Shown piece by piece: positions 12,973-63,183 of a DNA stretch of 64,000 bases (within the stretch, counting starts at the first letter, position 1; each line of letters begins with the position of its first letter). The DNA comes from Mycoplasmatota bacterium (GTDB lineage: Bacteria; Bacillota_I; Bacilli_A; Izemoplasmatales; Hujiaoplasmataceae). Below the pieces are notes generated by a model. The model made no database searches. It was not told the DNA's origin and saw only the letters and a list, made by a program, of their open reading frames with translations. Made by a program: the position numbers and the translations under genes. The stretch is from positions 682,001-746,000 of the forward strand of contig CP076020.1 in NCBI GenBank assembly GCA_018622675.1, in the 5' to 3' direction.

Positions 12973-13001
12973 TTGAAAAATATAAAAACATATGATAGTA
13001 T
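12973..13001 (+). promoter_or_regulatory. Promoter of the DegV-FabT operon
   Basis: TTGAAA (12973-12978), 17 bases, then TAGTAT (12996-13001). It starts immediately after the upstream terminator and would initiate near 13008, inside the first of two palindromic boxes. Confidence 0.55.
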
Positions 13002-13004
13002 ATG

Positions 13005-13034
13005 TTTTGAACTTCAAAATATTTGAAAATCAAA
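13005..13034 (+). promoter_or_regulatory. Two tandem FabT-like operator boxes
   Basis: Two copies of the palindrome TTTGA-N3-TCAAA lie in the leader. Box 1 is TTTGA-ACT-TCAAA (13006-13018), extended by one more T/A pair. Box 2 is TTTGA-AAA-TCAAA (13022-13034). Their centres are 16 bases apart, at and just after the predicted transcription start. As I recall it, the FabT operator of lactic acid bacteria has the same TTTGA-N3-TCAAA half-site layout. Since the operon encodes a FabT-like protein, autoregulation is the natural inference. Confidence 0.65.
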
Positions 13035-13048
13035 GGAAGGAATACATA

Positions 13049-13891
13049 ATGAATAGAATAGGAATAGCAGTAGATGGTAATTCAGGTATTGATTATTTAG
13101 AGAGAGATAAAGATATAAGGATATTTAGGTCGCATTTATTGATTGAGAACCAAGAGTTTGAGGACTATATAGAAATAAGTAGTGATGATTTCTATGATAG
13201 ATTAAATAAAAACCCAGATTTAAATATTTCTACAGCTCAAACGAGTACGGGTAAAATTTTAGAAATGTATGAAGAAATGAAAGCAAGTGGTTATCATCAA
13301 TTATTAATCATAACTATTTCAAAGGAATTAAGCGGTACATATCAAAATGCTGTATTAGCGGCCTCAATGATAGATATTGATGTGAGAGTATATGATTCAA
13401 AATCTGTTTCTTATATTCAAGCATTAATGGCCATGATAGCTCAAAAAATGGTTAAGAGTGGCAAAGATATTGATGAGATTATTGAAAGACTAGATTATAT
13501 TAGAGATCACAATCACATATATATAACTGTAGATACTTTAAAATACTTGGTGAAGAATGGGCGTTTATCAAATGTTGCAGGAGCAATTGGGTCCCTATTG
13601 AAACTAAAACCATTGTTAGAGGTAAATCAAGAAGGAAAAGTTAAAACAGTATCAAAAATTAGAACCACAAAAAAAGCGAGAAAATTATTAATTGAAAGAT
13701 TTGTTCAAGAAACAAATGGTAAAGATATTATTAGTTTTGTTGTATATACAAATAATAAGGATGAAATGGAATTATTTAAAAAAGAACTTGAAGCAGAAGG
13801 TATTAAAGATATTATGTTAGTGCCTCTAACGCCAGTAGTAGGAACACATGCGGGTCCAGGTACAATGGGAGTTGGCTATATTGAAAAATGA
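13049..13891 (+). CDS. DegV family fatty-acid-binding protein (FakB-like)
   Basis: A 280-residue DegV protein. The first lobe contains FRSHLLIENQEF, SDDFYDRL and TAQTSTGKILEMYEE; the second contains LKYLVKNGRLSN and ends GTHAGPGTMGVGYIEK. Family members (FakB) hold a fatty acid for phosphorylation by the kinase FakA, feeding acyl-phosphate to PlsX/PlsY. The start is ATG 13049, preceded by AAGGAAGG; an upstream in-frame ATG (12992) lies in the promoter. It overlaps the FabT-like regulator gene, which supports a role in lipid metabolism. No fakA lies in this window. Confidence 0.88.
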   Translation: MNRIGIAVDGNSGIDYLERDKDIRIFRSHLLIENQEFEDYIEISSDDFYDRLNKNPDLNISTAQTSTGKILEMYEEMKASGYHQLLIITISKELSGTYQNAVLAASMIDIDVRVYDSKSVSYIQALMAMIAQKMVKSGKDIDEIIERLDYIRDHNHIYITVDTLKYLVKNGRLSNVAGAIGSLLKLKPLLEVNQEGKVKTVSKIRTTKKARKLLIERFVQETNGKDIISFVVYTNNKDEMELFKKELEAEGIKDIMLVPLTPVVGTHAGPGTMGVGYIEK

Positions 13892-14324
13892 TCATATAGA
13901 AGCTAAAAAAATAGTCAATGAGTTACTGGTTGATATTTTCAATCGTATTTTAATCATTGAAGCTGAATACATGAAGAAGCAAAATGTTAAGTTATCAATG
14001 AATGAAATACATGTACTAGAAGCAATAGAGAGAGTTGATGAACCTAGCATGTCAAATATTGCTAAACAACTTCATATTACAGTTGGTTCATTAACAACTG
14101 CTATCAATACTTTATTTCAAAAGAAATATGTCATAAGAGATAGAGATGTAGATGACAGACGAAAAGTAATTGTCCGTTTAACTGACTTAAGTTATGACGT
14201 TTTAAGTAAACATGAACAATTTCATAATCATATGATAGATTCTATATTTAAGGATTTAAATGTAGGTGAAGATCAATTATTAATTGACTCATTAAGAAAC
14301 CTTTCTTCTTTCTTTAGTAGATAA
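13881..14324 (+). CDS. fabT: MarR family regulator, FabT-like
   Basis: A winged-helix MarR regulator of about 147 residues. The layout matches FabT: an N-terminal helix with NELLVDIFNRILIIEAEYM, then LSMNEIHVLEAIE, the recognition helix region ITVGSLTTAINTLFQKKYV, and the wing RDVDDRRKVIV. FabT represses fatty-acid synthesis genes with acyl-ACP as co-repressor. The start is placed at TTG 13881 with GGGAG upstream, overlapping the DegV gene by 11 bases. The pairing with a FakB-like gene and the TTTGA-N3-TCAAA boxes upstream make the specific FabT assignment plausible. MarR membership itself is firm. Confidence 0.8.
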   Translation: MKNDHIEAKKIVNELLVDIFNRILIIEAEYMKKQNVKLSMNEIHVLEAIERVDEPSMSNIAKQLHITVGSLTTAINTLFQKKYVIRDRDVDDRRKVIVRLTDLSYDVLSKHEQFHNHMIDSIFKDLNVGEDQLLIDSLRNLSSFFSR

Positions 14325-14325
14325 A

Positions 14326-14357
14326 AAAAACAGCGGATAAGTTATCCGCTGTTTTTA
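14326..14357. terminator. Bidirectional terminator between fabT-like gene and ferredoxin
   Basis: Long perfect stem AACAGCGGAT...ATCCGCTGTT (about 14329-14353), with A-runs on the left and T-runs on the right. It therefore terminates the plus-strand operon and, read in reverse, the minus-strand ferredoxin gene. Confidence 0.9.
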
Positions 14358-14991: not shown

Positions 14992-15022
14992 ATGGTCTCC
15001 ATTAAGGAGATCATATTTTTTT
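14992..15022. terminator. Bidirectional terminator between yneF and plsY
   Basis: ATGGTCTCC (14992-15000), loop ATTAA, GGAGATCAT (15006-15014), with one G-U pair, flanked by AAAAAAA and ATTTTTTT. The plsY stop codon (TCA on this strand, 15011-15013) lies within the right arm. Confidence 0.85.
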
Positions 15023-15649
15023 ATTAGGCTTTTTAAAAAGATAAGATTTATTCTCGTTGCCATGATAAAGTTTAACGAAATTACTTCTATGTCGATAGAA
15101 TATTAGTAAGGTTGCCGTCCATGTGACAATCATAAATATTAAATCATAGGTTGGATTGTCTGAAGCGAAATATAAGATACTAGCAATAATCGAAGTAAGA
15201 AGTGCTGTAGATGTGGAAGCAATTGAAACATATTTTGTAAAATGTACAGTTAATATAAAATAAGGTATTAAAGGAATTCCAACCCATGGCGCATAAGCTA
15301 TTATGAGTCCAAATGACGAAGCAACTCCTTTACCGCCTTTGAATTTCATCCAAATTGGGAAAATATGGCCAATGATAGAAGCTAAACCATAGTACAGAGG
15401 GTGTAACATGGTAACACCAAACAATTCAGGGTTATACCTAACTAATAATACTAATATACCACTTTTTGTTATGTCTAGAATAAGAACAAATATTCCAATC
15501 GTCTTTCCAAGAACTCTAAAAGCATTAGTAGTACCAAGGTTTCCGCTACCATGCTTTCTTAAATCTTTGTTTTTAAATTTTTTTCCAAAAATATATGAAA
15601 AGGGTATAGCCCCAATAATATAAGCGATTACTAGAAATAAGTATTCCAT
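15011..15649 (-). CDS. plsY: Acyl-phosphate:glycerol-3-phosphate acyltransferase PlsY
   Basis: A 212-residue polytopic membrane protein. Conserved PlsY loops are GSGNLGTTNAFRVLG near residue 35 and FKGGKGVASSFG near residue 105, with several hydrophobic helices. It transfers an acyl group from acyl-phosphate to glycerol-3-phosphate, the first membrane step of phospholipid synthesis. GAGAGG precedes the ATG. Its closeness to the FakB/FabT-like pair groups lipid functions in this region. The neighbour parE is transcribed divergently. Confidence 0.95.
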   Translation of the reverse strand: MEYLFLVIAYIIGAIPFSYIFGKKFKNKDLRKHGSGNLGTTNAFRVLGKTIGIFVLILDITKSGILVLLVRYNPELFGVTMLHPLYYGLASIIGHIFPIWMKFKGGKGVASSFGLIIAYAPWVGIPLIPYFILTVHFTKYVSIASTSTALLTSIIASILYFASDNPTYDLIFMIVTWTATLLIFYRHRSNFVKLYHGNENKSYLFKKPNKKI

Positions 15650-28247: not shown

Positions 28248-28508
28248 ATGGAAAAAAAAGAAAAAGTATTTAATAAGATAAAAGAAATGATTGTTCAAGA
28301 ATTAGGAGTTAAACCAGAAGTAGTTAAATTAGATGCTGGTTTAGCAGAAGATTTTGGAGCAGATTCATTAGACGCTTTAGAATTATTTAATCAACTTGAA
28401 AGTGAATTTTTAATCACCATCACTGATGAAGCTGCAACAGAAATGAAAAATGTTCAAGATTTAGTGGATTATGTAGCTGATAGTGTGAGTGACGATTATT
28501 TTGGATAA
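28248..28508 (+). CDS. acpP: Acyl carrier protein
   Basis: An 86-residue acidic four-helix protein. The 4'-phosphopantetheine attachment serine is S40 in FGADSLDALEL, followed by LVDYV near the C-terminus. It carries acyl chains for fatty-acid and phospholipid synthesis and could donate to PlsX upstream of PlsY. GGAGGGC precedes the ATG. It is a monocistronic unit with its own promoter and terminator, consistent with high expression. No TTTGA-N3-TCAAA box is seen at its promoter. Confidence 0.95.
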   Translation: MEKKEKVFNKIKEMIVQELGVKPEVVKLDAGLAEDFGADSLDALELFNQLESEFLITITDEAATEMKNVQDLVDYVADSVSDDYFG

Positions 28509-56957: not shown

Positions 56958-59714
56958 TTAAAATATATCAAAGTGTTTTTTTTCTTTCTTTAAAAGTTTG
57001 TGTTTTCTTCTCTTTTCTTTTTTGTGTAATCTAAGCGTGTGATGAATCACTTTTTTAATATTAGGTGTTTTCTTAGAATACTTAATATAATCACCAAATG
57101 AATCAACTAATTGTGAATAATCATTTTGTAATTCATCATAAAATTGTGAGTTTAACTCAATATTAGATAAATATGTTTCTAATAATTTGTTCAGTGTTTC
57201 TTTATTTTTTTTGTTTGTCTTTTTAATAAATTCATTAAAAACAGTATCACTATGATTAATCTCATTAATTTTATTTTTTATGATAGAATTTTTTTCTGAA
57301 ATAACATTATTTTTTAATGCTTCATAGTCAACTTGAATATGTCTAATTTGGTTATTTAAACTATCAATTGTCATGAAATATTTTTCATTAATATTAGATA
57401 GCTGATGATGATAAGTATTTTTTATCTCTTCCTTATCCTTTTGATATGCATCTAAAAGTTTAACAATTTCAGATGAATTAACCTCGTATTTTAATTTAAA
57501 ATATAGTGTCTTATAATTTTCTAATAAATGACCAATTTTAGTATCCAATGTAATTTCAGCATATTTTAATTTTTCGTGAAGTCTCTTTTTGCTTTTTTGT
57601 AAACTTTCGTATAGAAAATCGTCTAAAGGATGTGCAGACTTATCAACACTATCAATAAATTCTTGATATTTTGCTTGTGAATAACGGTATATTTCATCCA
57701 TTTCTCGTATAGTTTCATCATGGATTTCACTTGCTGCATGATAAGAATCTTCTAAGTACATATCAAGTTCATCTAAACGTTTTTGGTAAAGTTGTATTTT
57801 TTCGTTATTTCTGTATTTAGAAATAATATGATTAATTTCTTGATGATAAGAATTTTTTACTATCTTAAGTTCTTTCTCTAATTTTTTAATCAAAGAAAGA
57901 TCATTTGTGTTTTCGATTGCATGAATGATATCATAAACATCTTTTTGGTATTTAAAGAAATTATGATTGGATGCATCTTCTTTAAGCTTGACTTCATGAG
58001 TTATCATATCATAAAAATGTATACGCTCATTATCAATATTATGAACTATGCTAGTGAGTCGCATTTTTAAGTCATCATCAGCTAATTTAATTTGTTCCTT
58101 TGCGAATCTCATTTGATTTAAGTATGTTTCTGAAATCAATTTATAATTTATCTCAGTTTCAGATTCAATACGTTTTTGCTGGATTAACAACATTCTTTTT
58201 TCATGTTCAAATAAAGTTTTGTAGTGAAGTGTTTCTACTTCACTCTCTTTTAACGCCAGTCTAATATCAGAAGAAGCATTGATAATTTCTGTGTCTATGT
58301 CGGATTTTTTATAAACATTTTGATTAAGTTGATTTGAAAATTCCGATAAAAATTTTCTGTTTAAATTTTCGATTTTACTATGATAATCAACATATTCATT
58401 AATCAATTCATTTAAAAATACAATATATTGTTTGTCACGCTTTAAAACCACTTTTGCTGAATCGATCTGAGCTTGACTGTCTAGTAAATATGAGTGGATA
58501 TCTTTAATGATATTTAAAACATCAAGTTCTTGACTCGCAAACTTTGATTCAATAAAATGGACTAATTGATACTCATATGTTTTAATTTGATGATTTAATT
58601 GTACTAGTTTATAGGTAAAGTAAATATGATACTTAAGAGCCTTATTCATCTTATAAAGACGTGTGAATTCAATTTCCTTATGAATAATGCTAGCGCCTTT
58701 GTCTGAGTATAGTTGAGCTAAAAACGGATCAGTTTTATATAGATTCAAATAAAGTTTCAAACTCTTATCTAAAGTTAATAAAGCATTTAAATTATTTTCT
58801 TTAAATTGAAATAAAATATTTTTCTTGTCTCTAATAAGGGTTTTGATTTTCTTGTGAGCATATTTTTCTGCTTTAGATTGATTATGATTAAGTTTATATT
58901 TTCTGTGGTATAAATCATTGTATTTAGTTTCTATTTCCTCAATTAATTGGTTTTTTAAACGATTTTCTTGGTGAAGTAAAAATTCAGAATATTGATTATA
59001 TTGTCTTTCTTTTTCATGAGTCATCTTTTGGATTTCACTTGAATAAGGATCTTCGTTAGTGGAAAAATTAATTTGGCTTTCAATTAAATTTTTAATCTCA
59101 ATATCAAAAAATTCATCTAAAATATCTTCTTTATGACTTTTAGTAGATATGAGATTTTTTATTGTTTCATCTATATCTGAAATCTTATGATCTATGTTAT
59201 TAAATTCATCAGTTATTTCTTTAAAATGTTTCTCAATTACATAATTCATGGTTTGATTCTTGTTCTTTAAATAGCTATTATTGTCATTGATAATATCAAT
59301 AGTTGAATCAAAGAAGAACTTATAAGTTTTATAATAATCTAAGTTCTCATTTATCAGTTGGTTGTGTAAGTAGTCTATAGAAAAGACTCGATCTTTGATT
59401 TTATCGCTTTCAAAGTTTAAGATACTTACGTTATTTTTGTGAATATCAACCAAAGCATTTCTGATTACTTTTTGTTTTTGAATAATCATATCTTCATCAT
59501 GATTGATTATTTTATCTGTCATTTGCTTGGTTTTTTGTCTTATTGAATTTAGAGATTCATGAATACTATTTAAATTATTTATTGTGATTTGTCGATTTGA
59601 ATGGATTGTTTCTTCAATGTTATGATGGAAATTTGCGAAAAAAGATAACTCATCTTGTGATGATTTATCATATTTTTCTTTATAATTCTTGGTATTATAG
59701 TTATCTTTATCCAT
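56958..59714 (-). CDS. Giant coiled-coil protein B, unknown function
   Basis: A 918-residue protein, not recognised. Almost the whole length is predicted alpha-helical coiled coil: heptad-like spacing of I/L/Y with E/K/N/Q between, only about four prolines, and no tryptophan or cysteine. There is no Walker A, transmembrane segment or signal peptide. Two similar blocks, KNSYHQEINHI...KY and KNTYHHQLSNI...KY, suggest internal repetition. The last 30 residues are extremely basic (RLHKKEKRRKHKLLKKEKK), a possible nucleic-acid or membrane contact. GAGGTGG precedes the ATG. It is 22 bases downstream of its larger partner. Confidence 0.85.
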   Translation of the reverse strand: MDKDNYNTKNYKEKYDKSSQDELSFFANFHHNIEETIHSNRQITINNLNSIHESLNSIRQKTKQMTDKIINHDEDMIIQKQKVIRNALVDIHKNNVSILNFESDKIKDRVFSIDYLHNQLINENLDYYKTYKFFFDSTIDIINDNNSYLKNKNQTMNYVIEKHFKEITDEFNNIDHKISDIDETIKNLISTKSHKEDILDEFFDIEIKNLIESQINFSTNEDPYSSEIQKMTHEKERQYNQYSEFLLHQENRLKNQLIEEIETKYNDLYHRKYKLNHNQSKAEKYAHKKIKTLIRDKKNILFQFKENNLNALLTLDKSLKLYLNLYKTDPFLAQLYSDKGASIIHKEIEFTRLYKMNKALKYHIYFTYKLVQLNHQIKTYEYQLVHFIESKFASQELDVLNIIKDIHSYLLDSQAQIDSAKVVLKRDKQYIVFLNELINEYVDYHSKIENLNRKFLSEFSNQLNQNVYKKSDIDTEIINASSDIRLALKESEVETLHYKTLFEHEKRMLLIQQKRIESETEINYKLISETYLNQMRFAKEQIKLADDDLKMRLTSIVHNIDNERIHFYDMITHEVKLKEDASNHNFFKYQKDVYDIIHAIENTNDLSLIKKLEKELKIVKNSYHQEINHIISKYRNNEKIQLYQKRLDELDMYLEDSYHAASEIHDETIREMDEIYRYSQAKYQEFIDSVDKSAHPLDDFLYESLQKSKKRLHEKLKYAEITLDTKIGHLLENYKTLYFKLKYEVNSSEIVKLLDAYQKDKEEIKNTYHHQLSNINEKYFMTIDSLNNQIRHIQVDYEALKNNVISEKNSIIKNKINEINHSDTVFNEFIKKTNKKNKETLNKLLETYLSNIELNSQFYDELQNDYSQLVDSFGDYIKYSKKTPNIKKVIHHTLRLHKKEKRRKHKLLKKEKKHFDIF

Positions 59715-59736
59715 TAAATCACCACCTCTTATCATA

Positions 59737-62700
59737 TTAAGAATTAATAATCCTACTTTGTTTTTTTTCAGAACTTAGTTTTTCTTCGTGTAATTCATTA
59801 ATTTTTGTTTGTGTTTTATTAGACGTTTCTTTATGAATTGTTTTTGTGATATCAATCATGGATGATTGCGTGTTTAACAAATCATTCAATGGTTGATTAA
59901 GTCCGAGATCAAAACTTAAAGATGAAGGTATCTTATTGTTACGAAAAGCTCTATGGTGATCTGTAAAATCTTTGTTAAAATGTATATATTGATTTAAATA
60001 TTCATCTTCTAATTTTTTATGTTTATTATATAAAACATTGAAATCTTCAGAAATTTTTTCTTCTCGAATTTTTATTTTTTTCTCTAGAATAGGTGTTTTG
60101 ATAAACTTATCCTTTTCTATTTTGGCATATTTTTGCACTAATATATCATAGTGTCTATTAAATGCTTTCTGATTATCAACTTCAACCGAAGATAATCTAG
60201 TTTGTTTTTCAGCAGGTAAGACATCTAATTGTTTTAATAACTGTTGACGTGTTTGTTGTAATTGCGTTTTATGTTCATCCATCATATAGTTATTATATTG
60301 GATTTCTACATTTGCATCGAAGTTAATTTTATCAATTTGCTTTTGAATGATCTTTTTCGTTATTTTGTAGTCATCTAACAATAATTTATAATCATCAACT
60401 ATTGAATGATCAATATTTTTTAACAATTTAGGTAATTTTTTATCATTATAAGTGATCATTTTTATGATTTCTTTTTCTAAATATTTAAAAAGTTTTGTGT
60501 ATTGTTTGTTTTTAAGTAAAAATTGATTATTCTTTTTAATAACTTTTGAAGTAAAATAATCATTCATATCAGTAGTATACTTATTAATTAATCTCTTTTG
60601 ATATTTTATTTTATTTTTTAGTCTAAGTGATTTATTTTTTAAAAGTTTGTATTCATAGTTTATATATGTTTTATGATTTCTAATATTAACTTGTACGATT
60701 GCGAGTTGCTTAGCTAAAGTATTAAGTGTCAATGCAAAAGTGCTTTGTACCATTTTATCCATATATAAATATGCTTTTTCAAGTTTTTCTATGGTGTATA
60801 TTAGGTATTCTTTAAGTGCTTTATTAACTTTCTTTTGTTTTTTATAATGGTCAATTTTATCGTATATCCTAGTAAAATTCTCAGTAAACTCAATGATAAA
60901 ATCATCATAATAATTATTTAATTGATTAATTTTTGAATGAGCTGAGTTCTGATATAGGTAATTTAATAACTCATAATATACAATGGTGAACGTATGCATA
61001 GTATGGATGAATTTATTTTTTTCTAAAACTCGTTTTACTGGAATACCATTATTAAATTCTAACCTATTAAGTAAATATTTATAATGATCTTTGAGTGAGT
61101 TAATATGGTCTTCAGTAGATTTAATTAATTGTTTTTGTTTTAAGTATGAACGTTTAACTTCACGATTAATAGAAGAGGTTTTCTTATTTTCTACAAATTG
61201 TATTTGTGATAATAATTTGTCTTCAGATTCTTTAAAGTAATTCTCAAGCGAAAAATATTGATCTTTTTCACTTAAAAGTGAAGCTATATATTTAGAGTTT
61301 TTATGATTAGCTTTAATAAATTTTTGCATTTTTTTAATAAAAGAAACGAGATTGAATTCTTCATTCTTTAGAGAATTAGTTTTATTATCTTTAATCAAAA
61401 AATAATTTTTGGCTAATTGATAATTAACAGCTTTTGTTGATTGTGTTAATTTTTCTTTCATAATCTTCATAAATATTTCAGATAATGTCGTTTGATAATT
61501 ATAAAAATTGTCTGTTTGACTTGAAAGATTATAATAAATTTCACGATGTGATTCAGACTCAATTTCTATCAATTTATCATTATAATTTCTATGAATATCA
61601 ACTAAGTCTAACTCATGATTTAAGTCTGTAGAAGTTTTATAAATCTCTAGCAACTTGTCTTTATACAATTTATGAATATTAATTTTCTTTAATCTGTTCT
61701 TGTACTGGTTATTTGCTATTTCATAATCAGTATTTAAAGACTCAAGAAATTTAAGATAATCACCTTTAATATCAACATTAACCATTTCTTTTTTTATTTC
61801 GGCGATTTTTAATCTATAATTAGATTCTAATGTTGTAATTTTAAAGGCTACTTCATCGATATTAAATAACAAATCTGATAATTTTTCTGAGACTTGAGTT
61901 ATTTTAGCTAATAAGTTATTTTGATAATCAGAAAACTCTTTTTTATTTGATAGTAATTCTTGATCTCGTATGTCATTGAATTTTTGTGAAAAAGATATTA
62001 ATTCAGTTAAAAGCTTATCTAAATCATTAAAACCTTGATTAAAATAGAAGTTGTAATTAGAGTAAATATTAATTGAATTTTCAATAAACTTCATTGGAAC
62101 TGAATATGTGTATTTAATTTCTTCATTTCTGGTAAAAGCTTCAACTTTAATTTCTTTAATTCTTTTTTGGTAGGTTGAAATATTATAGTTAGTTATTTTT
62201 TCGATTTTTGTATTTAAAAAATCAGCTTTTTTTTCTAAAGCTTCTGTTTGTAGTATATATTTCTCAATGAGATCATTGTTTCTTTCTTTTTCTGCTTTTA
62301 TAATTAATGGATAAATTTTATCCTTTGATTCTTGCAAGTCTTTTTTTATTATATTTTGATATTTAATCTTATTATCATTGGCTATTCTGATTTGTCTTAC
62401 AAGTTTTTGTATGAGTTTTTGATTGATATCTGTATAAGGTCTTTGTTTTGATTTTCTGATTTTGTATATTTCATCTTTATAATCTTGTAAAAGAGAAGAA
62501 GTATCTTTGAACATGACGTTAATATCATTTCTAGTCCCTCTCATTTCTGAAAGTGATTTTATAATATTCTTATTCAAGGATATTAAATCATTTTTATCAA
62601 TTTGGTTAATGTCGTTTTCTAATTGATTTATTGAATTCTTAGACTTTTCAATGGTCCACATTAATTTGTTATTAAGCTTTGCATTTAATTCATCATAATT

Positions 62701-63183
62701 TTCTTTAAATTTATTTAGCTTTTTTTGTTCTTTCTTGATAAAGTCAGCATGTACACTCATGTCTTTATCGATTAAATCATTGTTTTCTTTTGTAAGTTTT
62801 AAATATATTTCAAAAGCATCATGCTTTCTCATTTCAAATTGTTCGAGAATATCCTCATAAATTAAGTGCTCATTTTCTGCTTTCTCATCCAAAACTTTTA
62901 GTTGTCTATATACATCTTCGTTAAATTCATTATTGATATTTTGATAGGTCATTCTTATGAAATTAATTTTTTCAAGATAATTTCTATGAAGTGAAGAGAA
63001 ATGATTGTATGAAATATCTTGATTTTTATGAAGTTCTTCTATTAGTTTCGTTGTTTTTTTATTATAATCATCTTTTACATTAGAAAAAGACCGTTTAAGT
63101 TCATTTAAACGATTATTTGACTGAGATTCAAAATTGGGATATTCTTTAATATATTTTAATAAAATATCGCCTGTATTTGCCAT
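59737..63183 (-). CDS. Giant coiled-coil protein A, unknown function
   Basis: A 1148-residue protein, not recognised. It is low in proline (about ten), has a single tryptophan (W176), no cysteine and no ATPase motif. Long helical heptad-like stretches run nearly end to end. A repeat of about 27-31 residues is visible as VDIKGDYLKFLESL (470), INIHKLYKDKLLEI (501) and VDIHRNYNDKLIEI (528). The C-terminal ~60 residues are less coiled (NNKIPSSLSFDLGLNQPLNDLL). AAGGAGAG precedes the ATG. It is the first gene of the operon with coiled-coil protein B and is divergent from ruvB. A cytoskeletal or scaffold role is a guess. Confidence 0.85.
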   Translation of the reverse strand: MANTGDILLKYIKEYPNFESQSNNRLNELKRSFSNVKDDYNKKTTKLIEELHKNQDISYNHFSSLHRNYLEKINFIRMTYQNINNEFNEDVYRQLKVLDEKAENEHLIYEDILEQFEMRKHDAFEIYLKLTKENNDLIDKDMSVHADFIKKEQKKLNKFKENYDELNAKLNNKLMWTIEKSKNSINQLENDINQIDKNDLISLNKNIIKSLSEMRGTRNDINVMFKDTSSLLQDYKDEIYKIRKSKQRPYTDINQKLIQKLVRQIRIANDNKIKYQNIIKKDLQESKDKIYPLIIKAEKERNNDLIEKYILQTEALEKKADFLNTKIEKITNYNISTYQKRIKEIKVEAFTRNEEIKYTYSVPMKFIENSINIYSNYNFYFNQGFNDLDKLLTELISFSQKFNDIRDQELLSNKKEFSDYQNNLLAKITQVSEKLSDLLFNIDEVAFKITTLESNYRLKIAEIKKEMVNVDIKGDYLKFLESLNTDYEIANNQYKNRLKKINIHKLYKDKLLEIYKTSTDLNHELDLVDIHRNYNDKLIEIESESHREIYYNLSSQTDNFYNYQTTLSEIFMKIMKEKLTQSTKAVNYQLAKNYFLIKDNKTNSLKNEEFNLVSFIKKMQKFIKANHKNSKYIASLLSEKDQYFSLENYFKESEDKLLSQIQFVENKKTSSINREVKRSYLKQKQLIKSTEDHINSLKDHYKYLLNRLEFNNGIPVKRVLEKNKFIHTMHTFTIVYYELLNYLYQNSAHSKINQLNNYYDDFIIEFTENFTRIYDKIDHYKKQKKVNKALKEYLIYTIEKLEKAYLYMDKMVQSTFALTLNTLAKQLAIVQVNIRNHKTYINYEYKLLKNKSLRLKNKIKYQKRLINKYTTDMNDYFTSKVIKKNNQFLLKNKQYTKLFKYLEKEIIKMITYNDKKLPKLLKNIDHSIVDDYKLLLDDYKITKKIIQKQIDKINFDANVEIQYNNYMMDEHKTQLQQTRQQLLKQLDVLPAEKQTRLSSVEVDNQKAFNRHYDILVQKYAKIEKDKFIKTPILEKKIKIREEKISEDFNVLYNKHKKLEDEYLNQYIHFNKDFTDHHRAFRNNKIPSSLSFDLGLNQPLNDLLNTQSSMIDITKTIHKETSNKTQTKINELHEEKLSSEKKQSRIINS

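Follow-up and report, generated by a model that had tools for sequence, protein, structure and literature searches.

A FakB-type gene and a FabT-like repressor gene share an operon behind two FabT-type operator boxes in a Mycoplasmatota genome where no fatty-acid synthesis operon was found

Results

A fakB-fabT operon with a tandem operator

A stretch of 64,000 nucleotides (nt) from the genome of a Mycoplasmatota bacterium of the family Hujiaoplasmataceae, order Izemoplasmatales (GenBank assembly GCA_018622675.1, contig CP076020.1, positions 682,001 to 746,000; here called the window) contains a two-gene operon, fakB(degV)-fabT, with two exact copies of the palindrome TTTGA-N3-TCAAA in its leader. 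In the reading that we favour, with a probability of about 75%, FabT loaded with acyl-acyl carrier protein (acyl-ACP) represses its own fakB-fabT operon and so provides a supply feedback on fatty-acid scavenging. The linkage of fabT to fakB is an old feature of the clade, whereas the loss of type II fatty-acid synthesis (FAS II) is recent—and in the window species, as judged from sequence, FabT's own operon with this FakB is the sole recognisable target left. Control in this species thus appears to be tied to scavenging, in line with the original prediction of a lipid-scavenging circuit.

Box 1 (TTTGAACTTCAAA, TTTGA-ACT-TCAAA, 13006-13018) lies at the predicted transcription start site, and box 2 (TTTGAAAATCAAA, TTTGA-AAA-TCAAA, 13022-13034) follows 16 nt later, counted from start to start, just after the predicted start site and abutting the likely ribosome-binding site of degV (GGAAGG, 13035-13040, plus strand); the two same-arm boxes with different spacers are therefore where the original prediction had placed them. 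The predicted promoter (12973-13001, plus strand) combines TTGAAA (12973-12978), a 17-nt spacer, and TAGTAT (12996-13001), and its chief support is its position relative to the boxes. Downstream, degV (13049-13891, plus strand, 280 amino acids) runs into fabT, as had been noted, though the overlap is probably 11 nt, with fabT starting at TTG 13881 (13881-14324, plus strand), and not the 44 nt given by the listed frame (ATG 13848 to 14324). The TTG start is more likely because this codon is kept in all 12 Hujiaoplasmataceae loci examined, two of which (L027, L029) have an in-frame TAG three codons upstream of it; given that stop codon in two relatives, the long start at ATG 13848 is unlikely. 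A terminator-like hairpin (14326-14356; one found, 0.1 expected) separates fabT from a convergent ferredoxin gene.

Profile and structure matches support the proposed pairing of a FakB-type DegV protein with a FabT-like MarR protein behind a FabT-type operator. The first gene product exceeds the cut-offs of PF02645 (251.4 bits) and TIGR00762 (254.2 bits), and its best PDB matches are FakB1 structures (E 4e-35). Four stretches align with those structures—TAQTSTG at residue 62, SGTY at 95, GRL at 171, and THAGPG at 266—and their Thr, Ser, Arg, and His are presumably the residues that bind the fatty-acid carboxylate in Staphylococcus aureus FakB. On this basis the product is a FakB-type DegV protein with predicted fatty-acid binding. 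The second is FabT-like by the same kind of evidence: it exceeds the cut-off of the MarR winged-helix family PF01047 (42.9 bits), its best PDB match is 6jbx_A, FabT of Streptococcus pneumoniae (E 4e-18; next PDB sequence 1.4e-7), and its best NCBIfam model is FabT NF050133 (104.5 bits; next family 39.8). Both genes are kept by purifying selection, with no signs of decay seen. For fabT, the ratio of non-synonymous to synonymous divergence (dN/dS) is 0.064-0.076 between the window species and its siblings and 0.042-0.115 among siblings, with one sibling pair not computable; for degV the corresponding ranges are 0.080-0.093 and 0.102-0.136, leaving aside the degV of G003, and pairwise dS is near saturation.

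The box is conserved in fabT-linked fakB leaders

Within the window the exact box occurs four times, the other two copies (29356 and 42736) lying inside open reading frames named by eye as hisS and trigger factor. Across the 1,648,168-base single-contig genome it is found in 17 places, compared with 9 for a reversed control pattern; 15 of the 17 fall within open reading frames, and the only intergenic copies are the two in the fakB-fabT leader. This list covers exact copies only, and degenerate sites elsewhere could escape it. A genome-wide search, proposed earlier to test whether hits fall before fab, pls and fak genes, thus places intergenic boxes before this fakB; fab boxes are seen in relatives, no fab operon having been found here.

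We examined 114 fabT loci, of which 70 formed a first set (every place matching at roughly E 1e-17 or better, with those of G090 and G093 left out) and 44 a second set taken from a longer match list; L048 is the same locus as L019. After removal of 26 loci where degV is not linked, two that lie at contig edges, and one whose leader is too short, 85 loci had degV directly upstream of fabT and a readable leader. An exact box is present in 79 of these 85 leaders (62 of 63 and 17 of 22 for the first and second set, respectively). As a control, each of the 20 possible orders of the arm letters was looked for in the same leaders: TTTGA gave 79, one other order gave 1, and the rest gave 0. The reversed pattern was found in 0 of 85. 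A count over 354 upstream windows gave 52 hits, but because these windows included the fakB leaders it carries no weight here. The boxes are therefore not random, and their conservation is far beyond chance. Among the boxed leaders there are 17 different spacers, such that the arms are fixed while the middle drifts, and the TTTGA arm is also part of a published pneumococcal palindrome (PMC8406281).

The tandem arrangement is narrower in distribution than the box itself. Two perfect boxes 16 nt apart are present in all five genus members. The other family leaders number 21: in 13 of them a single perfect box is accompanied by a one-mismatch copy spaced by the same 16 nt, L039 alone has two perfect boxes, and the remaining seven, including L025, have no second copy within one mismatch at that step. 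Leaders of the neighbouring family mostly carry a single box, and two exact boxes occur in 9 of the 85 leaders overall. In the first set, L025 (G026) is the one linked locus that lacks a box altogether; its leader is short, unrelated, and near a contig end.

The linkage is old

In a tree of the 114 FabT rows, the fakB-linked proteins fall into one clade of 89 rows (support 99/99), made up of 86 linked rows, the unlinked row L203, and two rows from contig edges; the tree is built on a short alignment, and many of its inner forks are unresolved. Outside this clade, fabT lies between acc genes and fabH in some genomes (L087, L245, L248) and after acpP in others (L084, L228, L232, L247). Because the linked rows form a single clade that spans seven families of the class (f1, f3, f7, f12, f16, f18, and f22), the fakB-fabT linkage is, on the sequence evidence, old. 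One f1 genome carries a second fakB-fabT pair on a 3,275-base contig (L053, G020:C17) that groups with f12 in the tree and may reflect transfer or contamination.

In relatives the same box precedes the fatty-acid synthesis operon

Fab loci were taken from 19 chosen genomes, in which the operon reads acpP-accB-accC-accD-accA-fabH-(fabK)-fabD-fabG-fabF and is unlinked to fabT. The acpP end is intact in 18 of them (L128, L129, L131-L146; L130 is truncated), and an exact box stands just before acpP in all 18, with the sibling G003 adding a nineteenth (19/19). In relatives with FAS II, the FabT encoded with fakB thus apparently controls both the fab operon and one FakB. The original prediction that the regulator is tied to fatty-acid uptake instead of synthesis therefore holds for the window species and fails for these relatives; likewise, the idea that a FabT of this kind has no control of fab genes is ruled out by the boxes before acpP.

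Several relatives show further variations. In three members of the neighbouring family, a second exact box separates acpP from accB (L140 at 18530, L141 at 18505, L142 at 17844), which brings to mind the internal promoter of streptococci that is located between acpA and fabK and regulated by FabT (PMC13046290). In G041, a FakA-like gene has an exact box 149 nt upstream of it (L193 position 1528; G041:C1:1537227), so that FabT may reach this kinase there; no such exact box precedes the FakA-like gene of the window genome. In L202 (G209), degV-fabT is followed by acpP, accD, and accA behind a box with one mismatch, and the fakB-fabT and synthesis operons appear to have been joined. Finally, G004 has three more exact boxes at or before gene starts (L179 at 1554, L185 at 1511, L128 at 1931); the genes, named by eye, are isoaspartyl-methyltransferase-like, small FMN-binding-like, and a 499-amino-acid gene, and the boxes may be chance occurrences or extra targets.

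FAS II genes not found in the window genome

The fab operon was not found in the window genome and is missing at its syntenic place. The order purA-purB-rhomboid-like (names by eye) is common to the window genome and G004, and the rhomboid-like gene is followed by the fab operon in G004 and by a glycerate kinase-like gene, also named by eye, in the window genome; the DUF4956-like gene (by eye) that flanks the other end of the operon in the sibling was not found in the window genome, leaving that end unmarked. Searches for individual enzymes agree with this picture. FabF gave only a 20.3-bit partial match, below the cut-off, in the window genome, compared with E about 1e-53 in three of the four siblings; in the fourth, G003, the contig carrying the front part of the fab operon ends shortly beyond it. 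FabH gave only a 52.6-bit FabH-like paralogue, which G002, G003, and G004 also carry beside their true FabH, and FabD was not found in the window genome, nor in G002 and G003, whose contigs are broken.

The acyl carrier protein (ACP) complement follows the same pattern. The window genome has one ACP gene, linked to hisS (28248-28508, plus strand), whereas G001, G003, and G004 have both the hisS-linked and the fab copy. As originally stated, there is no exact box at acpP or at plsY in the window, and for acpP this is because the gene is the hisS-linked one and the fab operon was not found in the genome; an exact box was lacking upstream of all eight non-fab ACP genes that were examined. The machinery for using acyl chains is retained: PlsX, PlsY (the acyl-phosphate acyltransferase that would use the FakAB product downstream; 15011-15649, minus strand), a FakA homologue of 559 amino acids (G000:C1:503934-505613, a by-eye assignment based on the N-terminal sequence and on the position ahead of recG and plsX), and seven DegV genes, of which only the fakB of this operon sits behind an intergenic exact box.

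Over the order, strong FabF and strong FabT matches are each absent from all seven genomes of family f2. Family f1 (34 genomes) has 21 genomes with both, 6 with FabT only, 3 with FabF only, and 4 with neither, and f3 (49 genomes) has 33, 6, 7, and 3, respectively; many genomes of these three families are incomplete, such that single absences prove little. Elsewhere in the window, two very long coiled-coil-like open reading frames (925 and 1148 amino acids) adjoin on the minus strand at 56958-63183.

Discussion

A feedback model and its rivals

By analogy with studied FabT proteins, which repress with acyl-ACP as co-repressor (PMC9083066; PMC13046290), we infer DNA binding, repression, and acyl-ACP as the ligand for the FabT-like protein described here. 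A dimer would bind the tandem boxes over and just after the transcription start and block transcription of fabT itself and of one FakB, making the operon autoregulated. Fatty acids taken up would be converted to acyl-phosphate through FakB and FakA, and PlsX would turn part of this acyl-phosphate into acyl-ACP, which would strengthen FabT binding and shut the operon, a negative feedback that would keep this FakB in step with demand. Where relatives have FAS II, their regulator of this kind would also govern the unlinked acpP-acc-fab operon; in the window species, with the fab operon lost, its own fakB operon would be the only recognisable target.

Several observations weigh against this reading. 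The promoter is a prediction only, as 2 promoter-like sites were found where 1.9 are expected by chance, and an exact box was not found in L025 and in five leaders of other families among the 85. The loss of FAS II is seen in one assembly, a single contig with a completeness rated at 94.68%. Neither protein reaches the naming cut-off of its NCBIfam model: the DegV protein scores 174.4 bits against the FakB1 model NF038249 (cut-off 350) and for that reason is not filed as FakB1, and the MarR protein scores 104.5 bits against a cut-off of 200 for NF050133, hence the name FabT-like rather than FabT. Two published studies add that the fakAB genes of Enterococcus faecalis, together with plsX and acpB, lie outside the FabT regulon (PMC13046290) and that FakB4 of Streptococcus pyogenes, the only FakB under FabT control that we met in the literature, makes no contribution to the incorporation of exogenous fatty acids (PMC10138225). 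Because FakB4 has no such role, the FakB of this operon may likewise handle a pool other than exogenous fatty acids.

That last point leads to the strongest competitor, one we regard as possible if distinctly less probable than feedback on scavenging, in which the linked FakB works like FakB4, binding recycled or internal fatty acids and limiting their loss or toxicity while FabT tunes the buffer. The presence of seven DegV proteins, only one of them under an intergenic exact box, would fit such a specialised role; on the other side, all acyl chains must ultimately come from outside without FAS II, and the typical FakB binding-site residues are kept. It is rather improbable that FabT is instead a relic in the window species, repressing itself and its neighbour by history and without a present role. 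The missing FAS II genes and the lack of any other intergenic exact box are what a relic would leave behind, but both boxes are perfect, and dN/dS for fabT and degV is as low as among siblings, a counterpoint limited by near-saturated synonymous sites and by a loss that may be too recent for decay. Slightly less plausible again is a regulator that leaves its operator on sensing free fatty acid, acyl-phosphate, or acyl-CoA, such that exogenous fatty acids would induce the operon. Many MarR proteins are released by ligands, and uptake genes are often substrate-induced. Since the operator is shared with the fab operon of relatives, however, such release would turn synthesis on when fatty acids are present, the opposite of what is reported for studied FabT (PMC9083066).

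Two remaining explanations deny the boxes a role as protein-binding sites. Box 1 could pair with box 2 in the leader transcript and affect fakB translation, and the transcript does fold with this pairing at -6.6 kcal/mol, but the fold is weak (z -1.17; 28 of 200 shuffles fold equally well), many relatives have a single box, the arms are fixed letter by letter with no paired changes seen, and the same box stands before acpP. We rejected this RNA hairpin as very unlikely. Chance AT-rich palindromes might be suspected from the abundance of copies with at most one mismatch in the window (23, compared with 15.8 expected), yet the arm-permutation control described above (79 of 85 leaders, at most 1 of 85 for rearranged arms) rules them out for practical purposes.

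Relation to known systems and significance

FabT, its box, and FakB are already known. Like the FabT regulon of Lactobacillales (Streptococcus, Enterococcus, Lactococcus), the system described here has a FabT-type MarR repressor, a TTTGA-type palindrome, and a box before the repressor's own operon and, in relatives of the window species, before fab genes. In Lactobacillales, however, fabT is the first gene of the fab operon, whereas here it comes second, behind degV; the fab operon stands apart from it in relatives and is missing from the window genome. The S. pyogenes fakB4 gene offers the closest parallel on the uptake side, being a DegV/FakB gene whose promoter contains a FabT consensus; as far as the accessible text goes, it is a FabT target not described as an operon partner of fabT, in an organism with FAS II (PMC10138225). 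The Firmicutes FakA-FakB-PlsX pathway is represented in the window genome by FakB, the FakA homologue, PlsX, PlsY, and ACP, and differs in the seven DegV genes, one under FabT-type control, and in the FAS II genes not found. Hujiaoplasma nucleasis zrk29, of the same genus and by our inference identical with G004 (PMC10470597), shares the fakB-fabT operon with two perfect boxes but keeps a second ACP and a fab operon that has a perfect box of its own. In the open-licence literature, judged mostly from titles and abstract openings, we did not find a fakB-fabT operon behind such a box, the clade in which it is shared, or a genome that retains it without FAS II.

These results point to an alternative wiring of FabT, in which the repressor gene is transcribed together with the uptake side instead of the synthesis side, and the dose of repressor would therefore follow scavenging capacity. 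We consider it an even bet that FabT has outlived FAS II in the window species as a regulator devoted to scavenging, one that senses how far the sole ACP is acylated and acts only on its own operon, which encodes one of seven FakB proteins, a switch that the old fakB linkage in wall-less and related Bacilli would have allowed. As the clade includes members with and without FAS II genes, it provides a natural setting in which to compare how fatty-acid auxotrophs keep uptake in balance, and the cultured relative H. nucleasis zrk29 makes the wiring testable.
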